Positions 32,095 to 43,034 of a DNA stretch of 64,000 nt are shown piece by piece (position 1 is the first letter of the stretch; the number at the start of each line of letters is the position of its first letter). Below the pieces are notes generated by a model, which saw nothing but the letters and a program-made list of their open reading frames with translations, ran no database searches and was not told where the DNA came from. Location: positions 558,001 to 622,000 of the forward strand of contig NZ_CP045073.1 of NCBI RefSeq assembly GCF_009301415.1, read 5' to 3'. This DNA comes from Paracoccus kondratievae (lineage in GTDB: Bacteria > Pseudomonadota > Alphaproteobacteria > Rhodobacterales > Rhodobacteraceae). The translations under genes were made by a program, and so were the position numbers.

Positions 32095-33039
32095 ATGCCG
32101 GATCGGACGCTTACCCCCGAACGCAGGCCGCGCCTTTTTCTGGTGGCAGCATGGATGATGGCGGCCCTCTGGCTTGCGATGCTGACACCCGCCGGGGCGC
32201 AAACGCTGCCTGACTGGCAGGACCCGCAGATCAACGACTTTGCCGGGCTTTTGACACCCGAGGATGCCCGGGCGCTTGATGAGGCGCTGACCGCCCTGCG
32301 CGATCAAACCGGGGTCGAGGGCACGGTCGTCACCCTGCCTGACCGCGCCCGCTACGGCGGCACGGACGGGCTTGAAGCCTTTGCCACCCGGCTTTTCAAC
32401 CATTGGGGCGTCGGCGACGCGACCCGCAACGACGGCTTCATGGTGCTGGTGCTGTCTGAAAACCGCGAAGCGCGGATCGAGCTGGGACGCGGCTATGAAA
32501 ACGACGCCGACATCCTTGCCCAGGAAATCATGCGCAACACCATGCTGCCTGCCTTTCGTGACGGGCAAATGTCGCGCGGCATCCGCGAAGGCACCTTGGC
32601 AGCAATCGACCTGATCGCCCGACCGACAGCGGCAGGACAGCCGGTCCGCGCCCCGAAAACAAGCATTGTCGACCGCATCGTGCCACTGTTGTTCGGCGGG
32701 GCGTGGCTTGTGATCCTTGGCGGCATTGCGCGGCAGGCATGGCGGCGCAATCGCTGCCCGCAATGCCGCCGGCGTGGACTGGAGACACAGGCCACCCCCC
32801 TTGAGACCCCGCTGCCGGAAGGCGGGCATATGGTCTCGCATGAAACCGTGACGCGGCGGTGCCCGGCCTGCGGCTGGTCCGAAAGCCGTGAGCGTCTGCG
32901 CCCGCAAACCGTCTGGTATGGACCGACCGGCACCGTGCTGCGCAGCGAGCGGACACCGGGCTATCGCAGCCTCTCGGGCGGGTCCCCGGGCTTTGGCGGC
33001 GGCTCATCGCGCGGTGGCGGGGCCTCGGGCCGCTGGTAG
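32095..33039 (+). CDS. TPM-domain (YgcG-like) membrane protein with zinc ribbon
   Basis: A 314-residue protein: signal-like hydrophobic segment (LVAAWMMAALWLAML), TPM domain (about residues 45-170, with NDFAGLLTPEDARALDEAL and DGFMVLVLSENREARIELG), one membrane helix (about 205-220), then two CxxC pairs (CPQC and CPAC) that look like a zinc ribbon, ending in a Gly/Ser-rich GGGSSRGGGASGRW tail. TPM proteins have been linked to photosystem II repair in plants and to respiratory chain assembly in bacteria; the role here is unknown. ATG 32095 follows GAGGGG; 32080 is the alternative start. Confidence 0.85.
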   Translation: MPDRTLTPERRPRLFLVAAWMMAALWLAMLTPAGAQTLPDWQDPQINDFAGLLTPEDARALDEALTALRDQTGVEGTVVTLPDRARYGGTDGLEAFATRLFNHWGVGDATRNDGFMVLVLSENREARIELGRGYENDADILAQEIMRNTMLPAFRDGQMSRGIREGTLAAIDLIARPTAAGQPVRAPKTSIVDRIVPLLFGGAWLVILGGIARQAWRRNRCPQCRRRGLETQATPLETPLPEGGHMVSHETVTRRCPACGWSESRERLRPQTVWYGPTGTVLRSERTPGYRSLSGGSPGFGGGSSRGGGASGRW

Positions 33040-34932: not shown

Positions 34933-35391
34933 TCACGATAATCCCTCAGAATGGTGTGAGCGTCGGCCTTCGTGTCCTCGTGGCGGCAGTACCGCTGGAC
35001 CATTTCCGCCGACAGTCCGATTGAATCGCTGACGCGCTGCAATCAACCCGGCCCGTGTACGTTCACTGATGAGATTGCGCTCGAACTCGGCAAAGGCGGC
35101 CATGATATGAAAGATCAACCGCCCACCTGACGTGCTGGTGTCGATCGCTTCGTTGAGGGATCTGAACTCACATCCCCTTTCGCCGAGTTCCTCGATGAAC
35201 CTCACCAGATCGGTCAGGGACCGCCCCAGCCGGTCGAGCCTCCAGACCACCAGCGTATCGCCGGGCTTCAGCGCGCGCAGCACCTTCTCCAGTCCGGGCC
35301 TGTCCATGTTCGAGCCCGTAGCGCCGTGATCCTGAAAGAGCTTGTCACAGCCTGCATCCTTGTTCCGTGGCGGCCGGTCATCGACCGCCAT
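34933..35391 (-). pseudogene. Serine recombinase/invertase remnant
   Basis: About 150 residues of a resolvase/invertase catalytic domain. GDTLVVWRLDRLGRSLTDLV, then EAIDTSTSGGRLIFH and FERNLISERTRAGL, are unmistakable. The first ~25 residues, with the nucleophilic serine (YxRVSxxxQ), are missing, and the C-terminal helix-turn-helix is out of frame after RQRFN. It cannot be active. It lies 75 bp past ssrA, a common integration site, and probably marks an old element boundary. Confidence 0.85.
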
Positions 35392-35455: not shown

Positions 35456-36244
35456 CTATGAGGGCGAAATCGCGCCGGGCCAGTAGAAGGCATCATCGGT
35501 CGGACGCGGGCCGAATATGGCCTGACCGACACGCACGACATCAGCACCTTCTTCGATGGCAACCTCATAATCCCCTGACATGCCCATGGATAGCTGCGTC
35601 AAGCCGGGATGAACGGCCATGGTCTTGTCCCGCAGAGCGCGCAGCAACCGGAAGCAGGGGCGCACCCGTTCGGTATCCGCGCTAAAAACTGCCAGTGTCA
35701 TCAGGCCGCGAGGTTTCAGCCGGGGATATTCCGGCAAGCGTTCCACAAACGCGGTCAGATCGTCAGGGTGCAAGCCGTATTTGCTGGCCTCGCCGGAGGT
35801 GTTCACCTGCACGAACACGTCAAGGTCGCGCCCTTGTGTATCAAGGCGGCGGTTCAGTTCCTCGGCTAGCCGGAAGCTATCGAGAGCGTGGAACTCCGAT
35901 GCGAAGCGGACGAGATATTTCACCTTGTTGGTCTGGAGGTGGCCGATGATGCTCCAGCGGATCGCAAGATCGGCAAGTGCTGCCTGCTTGTCGCGCGCCT
36001 CTTGCAGCTTGTTTTCCCCAAAATCAGAGATTCCCGCCGCAAAGGCGAAGCGCAGGATATGGGCGGGAACCGTCTTGGTGACGGGCAGAAGCCGCACATC
36101 TTCGGGCTGGCGGCCGCTGCGCAGGCAGGCGGCGGCAATGCGTTCCTGCACATCTTGCAGGTTGGCGGCAAAGGCGCGAGCGGGATCGTCCCCGAAGCGT
36201 GCTATGTCTTCCGATGAAAGATCGACGTTCAGCGAGACTGTCAT
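35456..36244 (-). CDS. yggS: PLP homeostasis protein (YggS/PLPBP family)
   Basis: A 262-residue PLP-binding protein with an alanine-racemase-like TIM barrel and no known enzyme activity; it buffers pyridoxal phosphate and affects vitamin B6 and amino-acid balance. LLPVTKTVPAHILR carries the PLP-binding lysine, FGENKLQEARDK and WSIIGHLQTNKVKYL are family signatures, and LSMGMSGDYEVAIEEGADVVRVG is the phosphate-binding end. ATG 36244 (MTVSLNV) is preferred; the longer frame adds an unlikely N-terminus. It lies 28 bp after glyA and is likely co-transcribed with it. Confidence 0.95.
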   Translation of the reverse strand: MTVSLNVDLSSEDIARFGDDPARAFAANLQDVQERIAAACLRSGRQPEDVRLLPVTKTVPAHILRFAFAAGISDFGENKLQEARDKQAALADLAIRWSIIGHLQTNKVKYLVRFASEFHALDSFRLAEELNRRLDTQGRDLDVFVQVNTSGEASKYGLHPDDLTAFVERLPEYPRLKPRGLMTLAVFSADTERVRPCFRLLRALRDKTMAVHPGLTQLSMGMSGDYEVAIEEGADVVRVGQAIFGPRPTDDAFYWPGAISPS

Positions 36245-36272
36245 ATCCGAACAGGCTCCCGCATCATGGCGG

Positions 36273-37577
36273 TCAGTAGGGCAGCGGAAAGCGACCGACG
36301 AGGCCGCGCACAAGCCCGCCGATCCGTTCTCGCTCGGCTTCGAGCGTCCCCCCGCGAACGGCGCGCAGCGTGTCGAGCATCAGAGCGGCGATCTGCCTGT
36401 ATTCTTCCGGTCCGAAGCCGCGTGAAGTTCCTGCCGCGCTGCCGACCCGGATGCCCGATGTTACCATGGGCATTTCGGGGTCATTCGGTATCGCGTTCTT
36501 GTTGAGCGTGATGCCGACAGATTCCAGCGCCTTTTCGGCGATATTGCCGGTGACGCCGAGAGGACGCAGATCGACCACCGCCAGATGGCAGTCGGTTCCG
36601 CCCGTGGTGATCGCCAATCCGCCTTCGGTCAGCGTTTGCGCGAGGACGCGGCAATTCTCGACCACGCGCCGCGAATAGGTCTTGAACGAGGGGTGAAGTG
36701 CCTCGCCGAACGCCACAGCCTTCGCTGCGATGACGTGCATGAGCGGACCGCCTTGCAGACCGGGAAAGGTCGCTGAATTGATCTTCTTCGCAATCTCGGC
36801 ATCATTGGTCAGGAGGAACCCGCCGCGTGGCCCGCGCAACGTCTTGTGCGTGGTTGAGGTGACGACATCGGCAAAGGGTATTGGCGACGGATAGGCGTCA
36901 CCGGCCACCAAACCCGCGAAGTGCGCCATATCGACCATAAGGATTGCACCCACTTCGTCGGCGATCTGGCGGAAGTGGGCAAAATCCAGCGTGCGCGGAT
37001 AGGCCGATCCACCAGCGATCAACAATTTCGGGCGATGCGTCCGCGCCAGCTCGGCCACCTGATCCATGTCGATCAGATGGCTTTCGGGGTCCACGCCATA
37101 GCTGACGACATTGAACCATCGGCCCGACAGGTTGACGGCAGCGCCATGCGTCAGATGGCCGCCCGCCTTGAGGTCGAGGCCAAGGATCGTATCGCCGGGT
37201 GTCAACAGCGCAAGGAATACCGCCTGATTGGCTTGGCTTCCCGAGTGCGGCTGCACATTGGCAAAAGTGCTTCCGAAAAGCTGGTTCAGGCGCTCTATGG
37301 CGAGGTCTTCCACCACATCGACATTGGCGCAGCCGCCATAATAGCGCCGATACGGATAGCCTTCGGCATATTTGTTGGTGAGGATCGAGCCTTGCGCTTC
37401 CAGAACGGCGGGGCTGACAAAATTCTCCGAGGCAATAAGTTCGATGCAGTTGCGCTGGCGGTCCCGTTCGTCGTTAATGGCCGCGAATACGGTGCTGTCC
37501 CCACCCGACAGACTGCTGCTTCCAACACTTCCTTCCGCAAGGGGCTGGCCTGGGGCTTCGGCTGTCGATGTTGCCAT
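36273..37577 (-). CDS. glyA: Serine hydroxymethyltransferase (accessory copy)
   Basis: A 434-residue PLP enzyme that interconverts serine and glycine with tetrahydrofolate. The PLP lysine is in [14 protein letters not shown] (about residue 245); other family segments are [20 protein letters not shown] and [15 protein letters not shown]. An unusual Ser/Gly-rich N-terminal extension of about 25 residues precedes the fold. Since it sits in a region bounded by recombinase remnants with other B6 genes, it is probably a second, acquired copy; whether it prefers serine or a related substrate such as alpha-methylserine is open. The operator at 37665-37707 lies about 90 bp upstream. Confidence 0.93.
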
Positions 37578-37664
37578 CGCTTATCTCCTTCAAGGTTCAG
37601 GCAGGGAGCGGCTAACCACATGGGCATCATGCGGCAGCCGGTCCGCCGGTCCCTATCATGAGAG

Positions 37665-37707
37665 TGGTCTGATATTCCCAACCATTTGCGGGATCATATC
37701 CAGACCA
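37665..37707. promoter_or_regulatory. Predicted MocR/PdxR operator upstream of glyA
   Basis: TGGTCTGAT (37665-37673) and an inverted copy ending CAGACCA (to 37707) span 43 bp. The same arrangement, with the same 43-bp span, occurs at 39204-39246 between mocR and benE. MocR regulators bind spaced repeats, so both are assigned to the MocR gene between them. The repeats are seen; binding is inferred. Confidence 0.7.
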
Positions 37708-37708
37708 T

Positions 37709-39202
37709 TCAGGTAGGCATCCTCACCGACTGGAGTGCGTTCGCCAGTTTTCTAACCGCAACCTCAAGCTCTGCCGGCGTGTAGGCGGCAAAGCCCATCA
37801 GGAAACCGGCCTTGCCGCCGCCCGTGGCATGTAACGGCGACAGTCCCAACAACTCCACGCCGACACGGCGCGCGGCATCCACGGCCACGCGCTCGGGAAT
37901 GTCGCAGGTCAGAACGCAAGGCATCTGCAAACCACCGATAGGAATACGAGGTTCGACAAAATCGGAAAGGTGTTTGCGGACCAAGCTAGAAAGCACATCA
38001 AGCCGTTGCGCATAGATGCCGCGCATAGCGCGAACATGCGCGCCGAAATGCCCGCCTTCCATAAATCGCGCCAGCACCAGTTGCGCCATGGAGGCGGTGT
38101 GACCGTCGAGCAATGTGCGGGCGACCGTCATCGGTTTCACCAGCGGCGGCGGCAGTATGACATAGCCGATCCGTAACCCCGGAAAGAGGGATTTGGTGAA
38201 GGTGCCAATATAAATGGTCCGGTCATGCGGATCGAGACCCTGCACGCAGGCCGTGGGCTTGCCCGCATAATGGAACTCGCTGTCATAATCATCCTCGATG
38301 ATCCACGCCTGATTCCGGGCCGCCCATTGGATCAGCGCCAGCCTGCGATCCAGCGCCAGTGTCACGCCGGTCGGGAACTGGTGGGAGGGGGTCAACGAAA
38401 CAGCCTTGGCATGGCGGGGATCGTCCAGGATCGGCTCGACCATAATCCCCTGCCGGTCCACCCGAACGGGCACGCATTCCAGCCCCGCTGCGTCGAACGC
38501 CTTGCGTGCGCCGTAATAGGCTGGGTCTTCGATGAAAATGCGATCACCGGGATCGAGCAGCATGTTCGCGCAGAGCGTCATTGCCTGTTGCGAACTGGTC
38601 AGCACCAGCACGCGGTCGGCAGTGGCGCGCGCCCCGCGTTCGAGGTTCACATAGTCGGCGATAGCCCGGCGCAGCGGCTCGGCCCCCTGCGGATCGCCAT
38701 GCAGCAGGGCCAACGTGCCGGTTTCCTTCAATACCTGTCGCTCCAGCCGTTCCCAAAGCGGGAGGGGAAAGCTGCGCGTATCCGGCACTCCGGGTGCGAA
38801 GGGGCGCGGCATCAGTATCTCACGCACACCACCGCTGCGGAACGTGGCGTCGCCGCGCTTACTTAGGTTTGGCGCTTGGTTGCGCATGAGAGCGTCGCGC
38901 TTGGAGCGCCGGTGTCCGGGTGTGAACTCCGTCATTTCCGCCACGAAGCTGCCGCTGCCGACGCGCCGTTCAATGAAGCCCTCGGCATGAAGCTGCGCAT
39001 AGGCGGATTCTATCGTGTCGCGCGAAACGCCCAGCGATGCCGCAAGCGCGCGAGAGGCTGGGAGCGCCTTTCCGGAACCAATTGCGCCGTCAAGGATCAG
39101 TTGGCGGATAGCCCGCTGAATCCGCGCGTGGAGCGGCATTGCCGCATGGGCCGGATGGGCGAGCCATGCCTTCACGGATTCGAGCTGCGAGTGCCTGAAC
39201 AA
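37709..39202 (-). CDS. MocR/PdxR-type GntR regulator with aminotransferase domain
   Basis: A 497-residue regulator: GntR winged helix (about residues 22-90, with LPASRALAASLGVSRDTIESA) joined to a fold-type I aminotransferase-like domain that binds PLP (lysine in GTFTKSLFPGLRIGYV). PdxR members sense PLP and control B6 synthesis or salvage. Neighbours here are a pdxY fragment, a PLP-homeostasis gene and a PLP enzyme, which favours a PdxR role. The frame begins at TTG 39202, immediately next to the predicted operator; an internal Met (39139, MPLHARIQ) is the alternative start. Confidence 0.9.
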   Translation of the reverse strand: MFRHSQLESVKAWLAHPAHAAMPLHARIQRAIRQLILDGAIGSGKALPASRALAASLGVSRDTIESAYAQLHAEGFIERRVGSGSFVAEMTEFTPGHRRSKRDALMRNQAPNLSKRGDATFRSGGVREILMPRPFAPGVPDTRSFPLPLWERLERQVLKETGTLALLHGDPQGAEPLRRAIADYVNLERGARATADRVLVLTSSQQAMTLCANMLLDPGDRIFIEDPAYYGARKAFDAAGLECVPVRVDRQGIMVEPILDDPRHAKAVSLTPSHQFPTGVTLALDRRLALIQWAARNQAWIIEDDYDSEFHYAGKPTACVQGLDPHDRTIYIGTFTKSLFPGLRIGYVILPPPLVKPMTVARTLLDGHTASMAQLVLARFMEGGHFGAHVRAMRGIYAQRLDVLSSLVRKHLSDFVEPRIPIGGLQMPCVLTCDIPERVAVDAARRVGVELLGLSPLHATGGGKAGFLMGFAAYTPAELEVAVRKLANALQSVRMPT

Positions 39203-39203
39203 A

Positions 39204-39246
39204 TGGTCTGATCCTCTGGAAATAATTGGCGGGGAACATCAGGCCA
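39204..39246. promoter_or_regulatory. Predicted MocR/PdxR operator between mocR and benE
   Basis: TGGTCTGAT (39204-39212) and the inverted half-site ATCAGGCCA (39238-39246) again span 43 bp, as at 37665-37707. It fills most of the short divergent intergenic region, so it would control both mocR and the permease gene. One base differs in the second half-site. Confidence 0.7.
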
Positions 39247-39312
39247 TTGGCCGGCTAAATGTCAAGCCATGTTTACGGCCTCGCGCCCTGCCTTTGGAGA
39301 ATCCCCGGAACC

Positions 39313-40545
39313 ATGTCGTCCAGTTCGTCACCATCGCCCATCCGGTTGAATGATCTTACCCATCCCATCGTCGCAGGGCTGATTTCCGTCATCGTCAACT
39401 ATGGCGGGACTTTCATTCTTGTCTTCCAAGCCGCGCAGGTTGCGGGCCTTAGCCCGGAATTGACGGCATCATGGGTATGGTCGGTTTCGATTGGTGTCGG
39501 CCTGACCGGGCTTTTCTTGAGCTGGCGCTACCGCGAGCCGATCATCACGGCGTGGTCAACGCCAGCCGCCGCCTTTCTTGTCACGGCGCTTGCGACCACG
39601 TCCTATGCGGAAGCCGTCGGAGCCTACATCATCTCTGCTGCTGCCTTCGTTCTGCTCGGCATGTCGGGATATTTTGAGAAAGTCATCCGATTGATCCCGC
39701 CCGGCATCGCCTCGGGCCTGCTCGCGGGCATATTGCTGCAATTCGGAATTGGGGCCTTTGGCGGCGCGAGCGTCGATCCGGTGCTGGTTGGCCTGCTGAT
39801 CCTTGCCTATGTGCTGCTCAAACGCATTTCCGCACGCTATGCCGTGGTCGGCATCCTCGTAATCGGACTGGTGTTTTTGCTCTTGCAGGATCGCGTCGAT
39901 CTGTCGGACCTGCAATTGCAGCTCGCCATGCCGATCTTTACCATGCCGGAGTTCACGCTGAACGCGGCATTGAGCGTGGCGCTGCCCTTGTTCCTCATCA
40001 CGCTGACCGGACAGTATATGCCCGGCATGCTGGTGCTGCGGAACGACGGGTTCAAGACGAGCGCCAACCCTATCGTGACCACGACCGGCCTTGGCTCGCT
40101 TGTCATGGCGCCGTTCGGCTCACATGCGTTCAACATCGCCGCCATCACGGCCGCCATCGCCACAGGCCGCGAAGCGCATGAAAACCCATCGAAGCGGTGG
40201 ATCGCTGGTATCGCGGCAGGCTGCTTCTATGTGCTGGTCGGCGTGTTCGGCGTGACCCTTGCGGCGGTGTTCATGGCTTTCCCCGCGACGTTCATCACCA
40301 CGCTCGCAGGCCTCGCGCTGCTCGGGACCATCGGCGGCAGCCTCGCGGGGGCCATGGCGGAACCGGTATCGCGCGAAGCGGCGCTCATTACGTTCCTCGC
40401 TTCGGCCGCCAACATCACCATGCTCGGTGTCGGAGGCGCGTTCTGGGGGCTGGTGATCGGCCTAATCGCGTACATGGTGCTGAACGGACAGCTTCCCCGC
40501 AAACGACCTGCCGAAACTGCGATCAGCGAGAGCGCCGCCGAGTGA
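39313..40545 (+). CDS. BenE-family permease, candidate vitamin B6-related transporter
   Basis: A roughly 410-residue membrane protein with about 12 helices, of the benzoate/H+ symporter BenE family (NCS2-like fold). Recognisable parts are HPIVAGLISVIVNYGGTFIL, then TAWSTPAAAFLVTAL, and later MAPFGSHAFNIAAITAAIATG. No aromatic-degradation genes are nearby. It is divergent from a MocR regulator and overlaps the start of pdxY, so a B6-vitamer role is inferred instead. ATG 39313 is preferred; 39259 adds 18 residues and lies close to the operator. Confidence 0.82.
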   Translation: MSSSSSPSPIRLNDLTHPIVAGLISVIVNYGGTFILVFQAAQVAGLSPELTASWVWSVSIGVGLTGLFLSWRYREPIITAWSTPAAAFLVTALATTSYAEAVGAYIISAAAFVLLGMSGYFEKVIRLIPPGIASGLLAGILLQFGIGAFGGASVDPVLVGLLILAYVLLKRISARYAVVGILVIGLVFLLLQDRVDLSDLQLQLAMPIFTMPEFTLNAALSVALPLFLITLTGQYMPGMLVLRNDGFKTSANPIVTTTGLGSLVMAPFGSHAFNIAAITAAIATGREAHENPSKRWIAGIAAGCFYVLVGVFGVTLAAVFMAFPATFITTLAGLALLGTIGGSLAGAMAEPVSREAALITFLASAANITMLGVGGAFWGLVIGLIAYMVLNGQLPRKRPAETAISESAAE

Positions 40546-41481: not shown

Positions 41482-41930
41482 GGCGTTCTGTCGTTCCGCC
41501 AGTCCAAAACCGGAGGCATGGCCTATGTCCCTTGGACAGCGCCCCTGCCAAGCTGGGGGGGGCGGATGGGATCAAGAACGCAGAGAAATGCTCGATGCCA
41601 TCCGATGCTTGTCAGGGGACTAACGTTCCTGCAAGCGCGCGGGTCTCGGCCAAGGTCCGAAAAGGGGTTAGCAACCTTATTAGTGACGCGGCGCGCGAGG
41701 CAAAGCTTGAAGCGCGTACCGCTCATGGCCTTCGCACGGCACGCTTGACTCGCATTGCCGAAGCAGGCGGATCGGCCCACGCCATCAAGTCATGGGGCGG
41801 TCACAAGACACTGGCCGAGGCCGCACATTATACCCAGTCTGCGGATGCAAAGCGGCTGGTGACCGGCACGGAACAAGAACAGAATAGTGTATCACTCGCC
41901 GAACGTGATACAAAAATTGGAAATAACTGA
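41482..41930 (+). pseudogene. Tyrosine integrase remnant (C-terminal half, frameshifted)
   Basis: Reading begins GVLSFRQSKTGGMAYVPW in one frame and continues in another as SNLISDAAREAKLEARTAHG, then LRTARLTRIAEAGGSAHAI and GGHKTLAEAAHYTQSADAKR. The HxxR, GGHKT and final Tyr segments of the phage integrase catalytic core are visible, but the frames do not connect (shift between about 41540 and 41650) and the N-terminal half is absent. The 240 bp upstream hold no clear gene on the plus strand; a minus-strand frame ending there (41363-41575) is unrecognised. Confidence 0.8.
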
Positions 41931-42139: not shown

Positions 42140-42502
42140 ATGAACGAGAAACAAGCCCTCCATGCCTTTGCCGCACTCTCGCAGGAGACGCGGTTGCGGA
42201 TCGTCCGGCAGCTGGTGACTGCTAGCCCGGAAGGCATGTCAGCCGGAGCCATCGGCGAAGCGATGGATGGCGCATCTTCGTCCCGTATGTCGTTTCATCT
42301 GAGCCATCTCGAACAGGCCGGGCTTGTCGAGTCCCGCCGTGACGGGCGGTCGATCATCTACAGCGCCGCGCTGACCACGCTTTCCGGTCTCGTGGAATTT
42401 CTCATGCGCGATTGCTGTCAGGGCCACCCGGAGGTCTGCAATCCGGCAATGGCGGCGCTGTCCTCCTGCTGCGAACCCACGAAAGGAACCTCCCATGTCT
42501 GA
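42140..42502 (+). CDS. arsR: ArsR arsenic-responsive repressor
   Basis: A 120-residue winged-helix repressor. HTH segment SSSRMSFHLSHLEQAGLV; the beta-wing is RRDGRSIIYSA. The classical N-terminal ELCVC site is absent; instead a C-terminal cysteine group RDCCQGHPEVC and a final SSCCEPT are present, suggesting As(III) binding near the C-terminus as in several proteobacterial ArsR types. The ATG follows the operator closely, and it overlaps the next gene by 8 bases. Confidence 0.93.
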   Translation: MNEKQALHAFAALSQETRLRIVRQLVTASPEGMSAGAIGEAMDGASSSRMSFHLSHLEQAGLVESRRDGRSIIYSAALTTLSGLVEFLMRDCCQGHPEVCNPAMAALSSCCEPTKGTSHV

Positions 42503-43034
42503 TGCACAAGAGTATCGCGTCTTCAACGTTCTGTTCCTCTGCACCGGCAATTCGGCGCGCTCGATCCTCGCGGAAAGCATCCTGAACAAGGATGGTGAGG
42601 GTCGCTTTCGTGCCTTCTCCGCCGGGTCGCAACCGAAGGGGACGGTCAATCCCTTCGCGCTGAAGGTGCTGAAGAGCTTCGACTATCCCACCGAGGGCTT
42701 TCGCTCGAAGAGCTGGGAAGAGTTTGCGGGGCCTGATGCGCCTGTCATGGATTTCGTGTTCACCGTCTGCGACAACGCCGCAGGCGAAGCCTGTCCGGTC
42801 TGGTCCGGACAGCCCATGACCGCGCATTGGGGTATAGAAGACCCAGCCGCCGTCGACGGGCCTGATATACAGAAGGAAGCCGCCTTCGTTGCGGCCTTCC
42901 GCTACATGAAGAACCGCATCTCGGCCTTCACGTCCCTACCGGTCGCCAGTCTCGACAAGTCGTCACTGCGCACAAAGCTGACCGAGATCGGCCAATCCGA
43001 TGGTGCGTCGTCTCCACGTAACAGTGCAGCGTGA
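42495..43034 (+). CDS. arsC: Arsenate reductase, low-molecular-weight phosphatase type
   Basis: A 179-residue protein of the LMW-PTP fold. The P-loop FLCTGNSARSILAE (CX5RS) starts near residue 16, and a second cysteine-rich segment FTVCDNAAGEACPVW follows, as in this arsenate reductase group. It would reduce As(V) to As(III) for export. It overlaps arsR by 8 bases. A second, unrelated arsenate reductase follows. Confidence 0.92.
   Translation: MSDAQEYRVFNVLFLCTGNSARSILAESILNKDGEGRFRAFSAGSQPKGTVNPFALKVLKSFDYPTEGFRSKSWEEFAGPDAPVMDFVFTVCDNAAGEACPVWSGQPMTAHWGIEDPAAVDGPDIQKEAAFVAAFRYMKNRISAFTSLPVASLDKSSLRTKLTEIGQSDGASSPRNSAA

Follow-up and report, generated by a model that had tools for sequence, protein, structure and literature searches.

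The window analysed here, a stretch of 64,000 nucleotides from Paracoccus kondratievae, contains a cluster of genes in which a MocR-type regulator lies between a serine hydroxymethyltransferase and a transporter of the BenE family. The genes of this cluster are:

35456..36313, minus strand: yggS, the gene that directly follows glyA, a member of the PLP homeostasis protein family (TIGR00044, 173 bits against a cut-off of 106)
36273..37577, minus strand: glyA, serine hydroxymethyltransferase, a second genome copy (the other at C2:366804, 65% identity)
37709..39202, minus strand: mocR, with a GntR wHTH and an aminotransferase-like domain
39313..40545, plus strand: benE-family transporter (Pfam BenE, PF03594, E 9.7e-132, 439.8 bits; TIGR00843, 405.6 bits against a cut-off of 203.4)

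The Pfam domains of the MocR protein, PF00392 at residues 26-87 and PF00155 at residues 165-419, fit the architecture of the MocR/GabR subfamily. It scores 399.2 bits with the NCBIfam PdxR model (NF052282), above the cut-off of 320, and an assignment to the rhizopine MocR proteins (NF052281) was rejected, as the 411.9 bits obtained lie under the cut-off of 650. In an alignment made through the PDB, Lys337 of this protein corresponds to Lys312 of GabR, which is named as the PLP lysine in the available part of PMC8739950. The benE start is likely the ATG at 39313, as the longest open reading frame, from 39259, begins inside a -10-like hexamer. The longest open reading frame of yggS overlaps the end of glyA, and an in-frame ATG at 36244 does not; this gene too is a second genome copy, the other lying at C1:2214380 with 43% identity. 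The BenE family has a single match in the whole genome, and the genomic context of this transporter points to B6 metabolism. With pdxJ at C2:1065349, the genome encodes at least part of the pathway for de novo B6 synthesis.

A preliminary description of this DNA had drawn attention to two pairs of half-sites, upstream of glyA (37665-37707, site 1) and between mocR and benE (39204-39246, site 2), and had argued that their equal spacing was unlikely by chance. Both parts of this claim were confirmed. A search of both strands of the window for TGGTCTGAT gives two perfect matches only, at 37665 and 39204, and the inverted partners end at 37707 and 39246, giving an outer span of 43 bp at both sites, with imperfect right arms (TGGTCTGGA at site 1 and TGGCCTGAT at site 2). 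The window holds three TGGNCTG...CAGNCCA pairs with a span of 20-80, namely these two with span 43 and one at 32775 with span 20, as against a mean of 0.335 such pairs, and of 0.02 with span 43, when the window is shuffled by dinucleotides; of 200 such shuffles, none contained two pairs sharing a span. The half-sites alone, with one mismatch allowed, are not rare (13 observed in the window versus 10.5 expected), so it is the pairing that carries the signal. Across the whole genome of 4,228,383 bases the pattern TGGNCTGATN{20,30}CAGNCCA is found at these two places only, and the reversed-pattern control gave 0 matches.

To define the anatomy of the sites we used mocR orthologues, taken as the best 80 of 587 confirmed stretches. 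An ungapped alignment anchored on the mocR start comprises 36 rows, the window and 35 orthologues (G121 among them); L020, L033, L034, L036, L037, L067 and L070, in which the matched start lies elsewhere or the upstream DNA is cut, are not part of it, nor is L052, which has the site all the same. The window, L003 and L084 were kept out when a sequence-only profile of 46 positions, R1, was derived from the other 33 rows. The alignment resolves the operator into three boxes, two direct and one inverted, which read TGGtctG - aAAnTGGnnGGg - atCagnCCA (lower case, variable). A two-box palindrome was rejected on this basis, the third box being conserved as well as the outer two. The corresponding features of the window are:

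39204..39246, plus strand: putative operator 2 in the mocR-benE intergenic region, boxes A-B-C towards benE (R1 match 39203-39248, 39.3 bits, E 2.7e-9)
39204..39210, plus strand: box A of operator 2, TGGTCTG, one base from the TTG start of mocR; TGG and the last G invariant in 36/36 rows
39227..39234, plus strand: box B of operator 2, TGGCGGGG, a direct repeat of A that includes GCGGG; TGG invariant in 36/36 rows
39238..39246, plus strand: box C of operator 2, ATCAGGCCA, inverted, from the alignment
37665..37707, minus strand: putative operator 1 between the mocR stop and glyA, boxes A-B-C towards glyA (R1 match 37708-37665, 30.4 bits, E 1.7e-6)
37701..37707, minus strand: box A of operator 1, TGGTCTG
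37677..37684, minus strand: box B of operator 1, TGGTTGGG, homologue of the GCGGG box of site 2, on the opposite strand
37665..37673, minus strand: box C of operator 1, ATCAGACCA

Since R1 fits site 2 on the plus strand and site 1 as its reverse complement, the two operators are inverted relative to each other, each reading A-B-C towards its own target. The register proposed earlier, in which the sites had the same orientation and a common GCGGG, is thereby rejected. Consistent with this, the two sites are identical at 22/43 positions in that register and at 26/43 when one is reverse-complemented, and their inner 23 bases agree at 7 and 11 positions, respectively. GCGGG is indeed present in both, at offsets 23 and 25, but belongs to a conserved box at site 2 only, and its occurrence at site 1 is a coincidence.

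The preliminary description had also suggested scanning related genomes for the spaced half-sites, and a scan of orthologous loci recovers them. Among the matches listed in a scan of 82 sources, 40 of the 43 orthologues with at least 60% identity have, upstream of mocR, an R1 match that extends over at least 44 of the 46 positions; 33 of these 40 are rows on which the profile was trained. The 10 non-training orthologues comprise seven that match R1, L070, which matches partly, and the cut contigs L033, where no R1 site is seen in the 82 bases available before the match, and L067, which lacks the 5' part of mocR. Going by their genus names, we take the orthologues to come from Alpha-, Beta- and Gammaproteobacteria. 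The order of the three boxes and the 43-bp span are constant in 36/36 aligned rows, among the matches listed, and CTA replaces the last CCA in three of them (L018, L031, L062). Besides the window, seven loci have glyA or yggS directly following mocR, and in five of them R1 finds a second operator that faces this gene; it is clear in L003, L004 and L084 and partial in L005 (E 0.014) and L025 (E 0.02). In L052 and L072 R1 missed it, and a degenerate copy is visible by eye. The L052 record is titled Bacillus subtilis SK6B4 and carries the cluster at 83% identity to an alphaproteobacterial-type protein; the record is likely to be contaminated or mistitled. In a distant mocR clade (50-55% identity) the 43-bp outer pair lies near mocR in 14/22 loci, that of L039 probably inside coding sequence, and TGG is kept at the place of box B in only 4/22. 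Members of this clade (L039-L060 without L052, plus L066) are often near benE and show TGGNCTGC half-sites, often with TGT for TGG in the middle box. Hence, the earlier proposal that the sites are operators uniting glyA, mocR and benE in one regulon finds good support in the conservation of the sites at orthologous loci, whereas the two-box anatomy and the relative orientation that it assumed do not stand.

The genes facing the operator vary among loci within a narrow repertoire. Among the matches listed, the first divergent gene in the 43 orthologues is benE in 31, yggS in 5, a GNAT acetyltransferase in 4 and glyA in 1; in the remaining two, the cut loci L033 and L067, no divergent gene was found. 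The benE of L014 amounts to a match of 55 residues, and yggS and glyA come after it. Longer same-strand runs include benE-yggS, yggS-glyA, benE-gnat (L030) and benE-yggS-glyA-gnat (L028). Anywhere within the 43 loci, again among the matches listed, yggS is matched in 20 and glyA in 19, though the glyA matches with identities of about 46-57% may include unrelated copies of housekeeping type. The loci with a divergent GNAT gene, L035, L036, L037 and L070, are uncut and all without benE, yggS and glyA. Their acetyltransferase is related to an extra operator target in Pectobacterium, where 2 of the 3 genomes searched have a further strong R1 site in front of a GNAT gene (E 3.2e-7 and 1.8e-7), with the TA spacing kept; the third (G164) has weak partial extra matches only. 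Weak extra matches (E 0.018-0.1) are those in G156, G174 and G176 and the two in G164; the ones in G151 and G171 correspond to the second operators already described for L005 and L025. A partial match of 21 bits in G150 (L161) was set aside, as no target gene was seen downstream on that strand. In Denitrificimonas caeni, L160 (1197-4080) holds a second divergent mocR-benE pair with its own operator, besides L032; its extra site was rejected as a new target, because it precedes this second mocR with its own divergent benE. In addition to glyA, mocR and benE, the regulon should include yggS, which directly follows glyA.

Beyond the boxes themselves, the position of the operator relative to the promoters of its targets is conserved. 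The predicted promoter elements of the window are:

39256..39261, plus strand: -10-like hexamer of benE, TAAATG; TA at the same spacing in 36/36 rows
39260..39265, minus strand: TTGACA, -35-like element of mocR that overlaps the benE -10; an exact match here in 11/36 rows, the window included
37650..37655, minus strand: -10-like hexamer of glyA, TAGGGA (weak), at a distance from box C equal to that of benE

The operator extends across the -35 position of both targets, its box C ending 9 nt short of the -10-like hexamer. The benE-side -10-like position reads TATAAA in 18/36 rows, and TA at the glyA-like -10 position is also seen at the second copies of L003, L004, L084, L005 and L025. The best match to TTGACA at 16-19 bp from the -10 reaches at most 3/6 in 31/36 rows, which is about random. 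The -10 of the mocR promoter would fall in box C of operator 2.

These observations lead us to a scheme that we consider likely as a whole, in which a PLP-binding factor of the MocR/PdxR type activates benE and glyA-yggS and limits its own gene. A MocR dimer, joined through its aminotransferase-like domains and carrying PLP on Lys337, would bind boxes A and B, the direct pair, together with the inverted box C, a stretch of 43 bp, in the manner described for factors of the PdxR/GabR type. Given that the operator sits on the -35 position of targets without a recognizable -35, the bound MocR most likely replaces this element and would thereby activate benE and glyA-yggS. Occupancy of operator 2 would at the same time cover the mocR promoter (TTGACA) on the opposite strand, with box A beside the mocR start, and so limit mocR. 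Targets lacking a -35 and a mocR side possessing TTGACA fit a combination of target activation and autorepression, as for GabR. The signal would probably be PLP, its lack or a PLP adduct, and the output would be a transporter plus additional copies of an SHMT and a PLP-carrier protein. Most of our reservation about this scheme concerns the direction of regulation, where activation is the most likely reading, drawn solely from promoter geometry; the weak -10 of glyA (TAGGGA) counts against the scheme. A link of the target genes to one another is plausible, as E. coli PLPHP can hand PLP to serine hydroxymethyltransferase in vitro, according to the part of PMC13353753 available.

The alternative that keeps the most weight, unlikely as we consider it, is that MocR represses at both operators and is released by PLP or a PLP-amine adduct. 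At benE and glyA alike, boxes B and C do lie over the -35 position and extend into the -35/-10 spacer, as the site of a repressor might, and there are precedents in the family: EnuR is described as a repressor with predicted operators overlapping the promoter core in the accessible part of PMC8739950, and PtsJ is called a repressor in a reference title within that of PMC6917764. However, a repressor-controlled promoter would be expected to have a -35 element, which the targets lack, and box C ends short of the -10. Other relatives also speak against it: in the parts of PMC6522883 and PMC6917764 available, GabR and TauR activate their targets, and PdxR is named an activator in reference titles of the same sources. 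Activation of the targets by MocR remains the preferred reading.

Whether the sites belong to this regulator at all can be judged from their distribution. The binding of MocR is deduced, which leaves room for another DNA-binding protein whose sites stand next to mocR by coincidence; we regard this as very improbable, given that the site is found at the mocR start in 36/36 aligned rows and keeps company with the gene in genome-wide searches. Over the whole genome, where the best 150 of 915 first-look candidates were scored, R1 finds exactly the two places described, neither of which was in its training, and no additional operator up to E 10. Among 149 genomes of the family, matches with E <1e-5 are confined to 2, and these are also the two whose mocR has at least 96% identity. 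In a further 27 family genomes the MocR relatives reach only 32-40% identity (at E 1e-60 or better) and a strong site is absent, and 14/149 show weak partial matches (E 0.002-0.1) without a close mocR, which we took as background. Among 385 genomes of the class none but the genome itself has a match under E 7e-4; two partial matches class-wide (E 7e-4 and 0.003), in genomes without a close mocR, were likewise taken as background. The other class genomes include none with a close mocR and four with relatives at 47-51%, so that this test says little beyond background. The filters of the family and class searches were stricter than those of the single-genome search, with 41 and 16 first-look candidates, respectively, scored in the genome itself. 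That the sites are chance matches or functionless relics of a duplication, to which their sharing of only 26/43 bases even when properly oriented might lend some appeal, has a negligible probability and is already contradicted by the shuffle and whole-genome tests and by distant orthologous loci that conserve the site while the spacer bases are free to vary. We are accordingly highly confident that both sites act as operators of the MocR encoded between them, a judgement made from sequence comparison, and one vitamin B6-binding regulator very probably controls benE and a PLP-dependent enzyme gene through them.

The kind of regulon is already known, as its type and motif were predicted by Suvorova and Rodionov in 2016 (PMC5320631); what is new is a sharply resolved, conserved case. 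In the part of that study available, the predicted MocR/PdxR regulons include BenE, GlyA, COG325 and acetyltransferases of the RimI/RimL family, BenE is called a putative pyridoxine transporter with a predicted functional link to GlyA, and two direct boxes with one inverted box form the commonest MocR motif (32% of regulons). The regulons of that study and ours are alike in BenE, GlyA, COG325 and acetyltransferases, and in the two direct boxes and one inverted box with a TGG or TGT core. Resolved here, beyond that part of the study, are the box spacing, the register relative to the -10, the exchange of divergent targets among four families and the inverted pair of operators at mocR-glyA. Among papers with BenE plus MocR or YggS in the literature searched, PMC5320631 alone links them; the available text of PMC9484086 mentions a MocR-type PdxR and benE separately, and in PMC11577788 the name BenE belongs to an author. 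In the literature searched, which excludes subscription journals, there was no experimental study of this mocR orthologous group.

Comparison with characterized members of the subfamily brings out what is shared and what is particular. PdxR of Bacillus clausii, Corynebacterium glutamicum and Listeria resembles this MocR in domain architecture and in the NCBIfam score above the cut-off. The targets of PdxR are the PLP synthesis genes pdxST, whereas here they are benE and glyA-yggS, with no operator found elsewhere in the genome. An operator before PLP synthesis or salvage genes, a trait of PdxR, was not seen: R1 sites lie at benE/mocR and glyA only, with none near pdxJ, the other glyA copy or the other yggS copy, and a GNAT relative at C1:408586 (37% identity) gave no operator match either. 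A link of this regulator to B6 supply is therefore indirect. The GabR operator consists of ATACCA repeats. GabR of Bacillus subtilis activates its target and represses its own gene, according to the available part of PMC6522883, and its PLP lysine is aligned with that of our protein; its target differs, being GABA catabolism. The available text of PMC4944035 notes that an operator of two direct repeats and one inverted repeat, the same layout as here, has been reported for PdxR. It also describes YczR, which is alike in being a MocR divergent from a membrane-protein gene, with inverted and direct repeats, but differs in its target, YczE rather than BenE, and its repeat, GTCCACT; BenE and GlyA are absent from this text.

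The surroundings of the cluster bear on its history. An open reading frame for a resolvase N-terminal domain (152 aa, 34933-35391, minus strand) lies on one side of the yggS-glyA-mocR-benE cluster, and on the other an open reading frame at 41532-41930 (plus strand) resembles by eye the C-terminal end of a phage-type integrase. Farther on, at 42140-43034 (plus strand), an ArsR/SmtB-type regulator stands beside an open reading frame like low-molecular-weight phosphatases/arsenate reductases, the probable start of an arsenic resistance cluster. The mocR gene is absent from G023, a genome of the same genus, and a plasmid of Shinella zoogloeoides has the greater part of the query stretch, at 91% coverage and 80.5% identity, which together suggest that the cluster probably moves horizontally. 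With its resolvase- and integrase-like flanks and its patchy distribution, the region looks like a degraded mobile region.

At the level of the promoter, the operator fixes the position of a three-box MocR site relative to the -10 of its target. In physiological terms, we tentatively suggest, as a possibility well short of the regulatory scheme in likelihood, that it marks out a small PLP-stress module of the proteobacteria that is carried horizontally. BenE, a spare PLP carrier (YggS), a spare SHMT and a GNAT enzyme would be its exchangeable answers to a shortage of PLP or to its capture by a reactive amine, with BenE moving a B6 vitamer or a PLP-attacking amine and GNAT capping the amine. 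For most species, with E. coli and B. subtilis among them, the transporters of B6 vitamers remain mysterious, as stated in the available part of PMC9997740. Finding a BenE transporter, a PLP carrier, a PLP enzyme and an acetyltransferase under one exactly defined operator open to mutation makes the question of B6 transport testable. If the suggestion is true and BenE carries B6 itself, BenE would be one of the missing bacterial B6 transporters.
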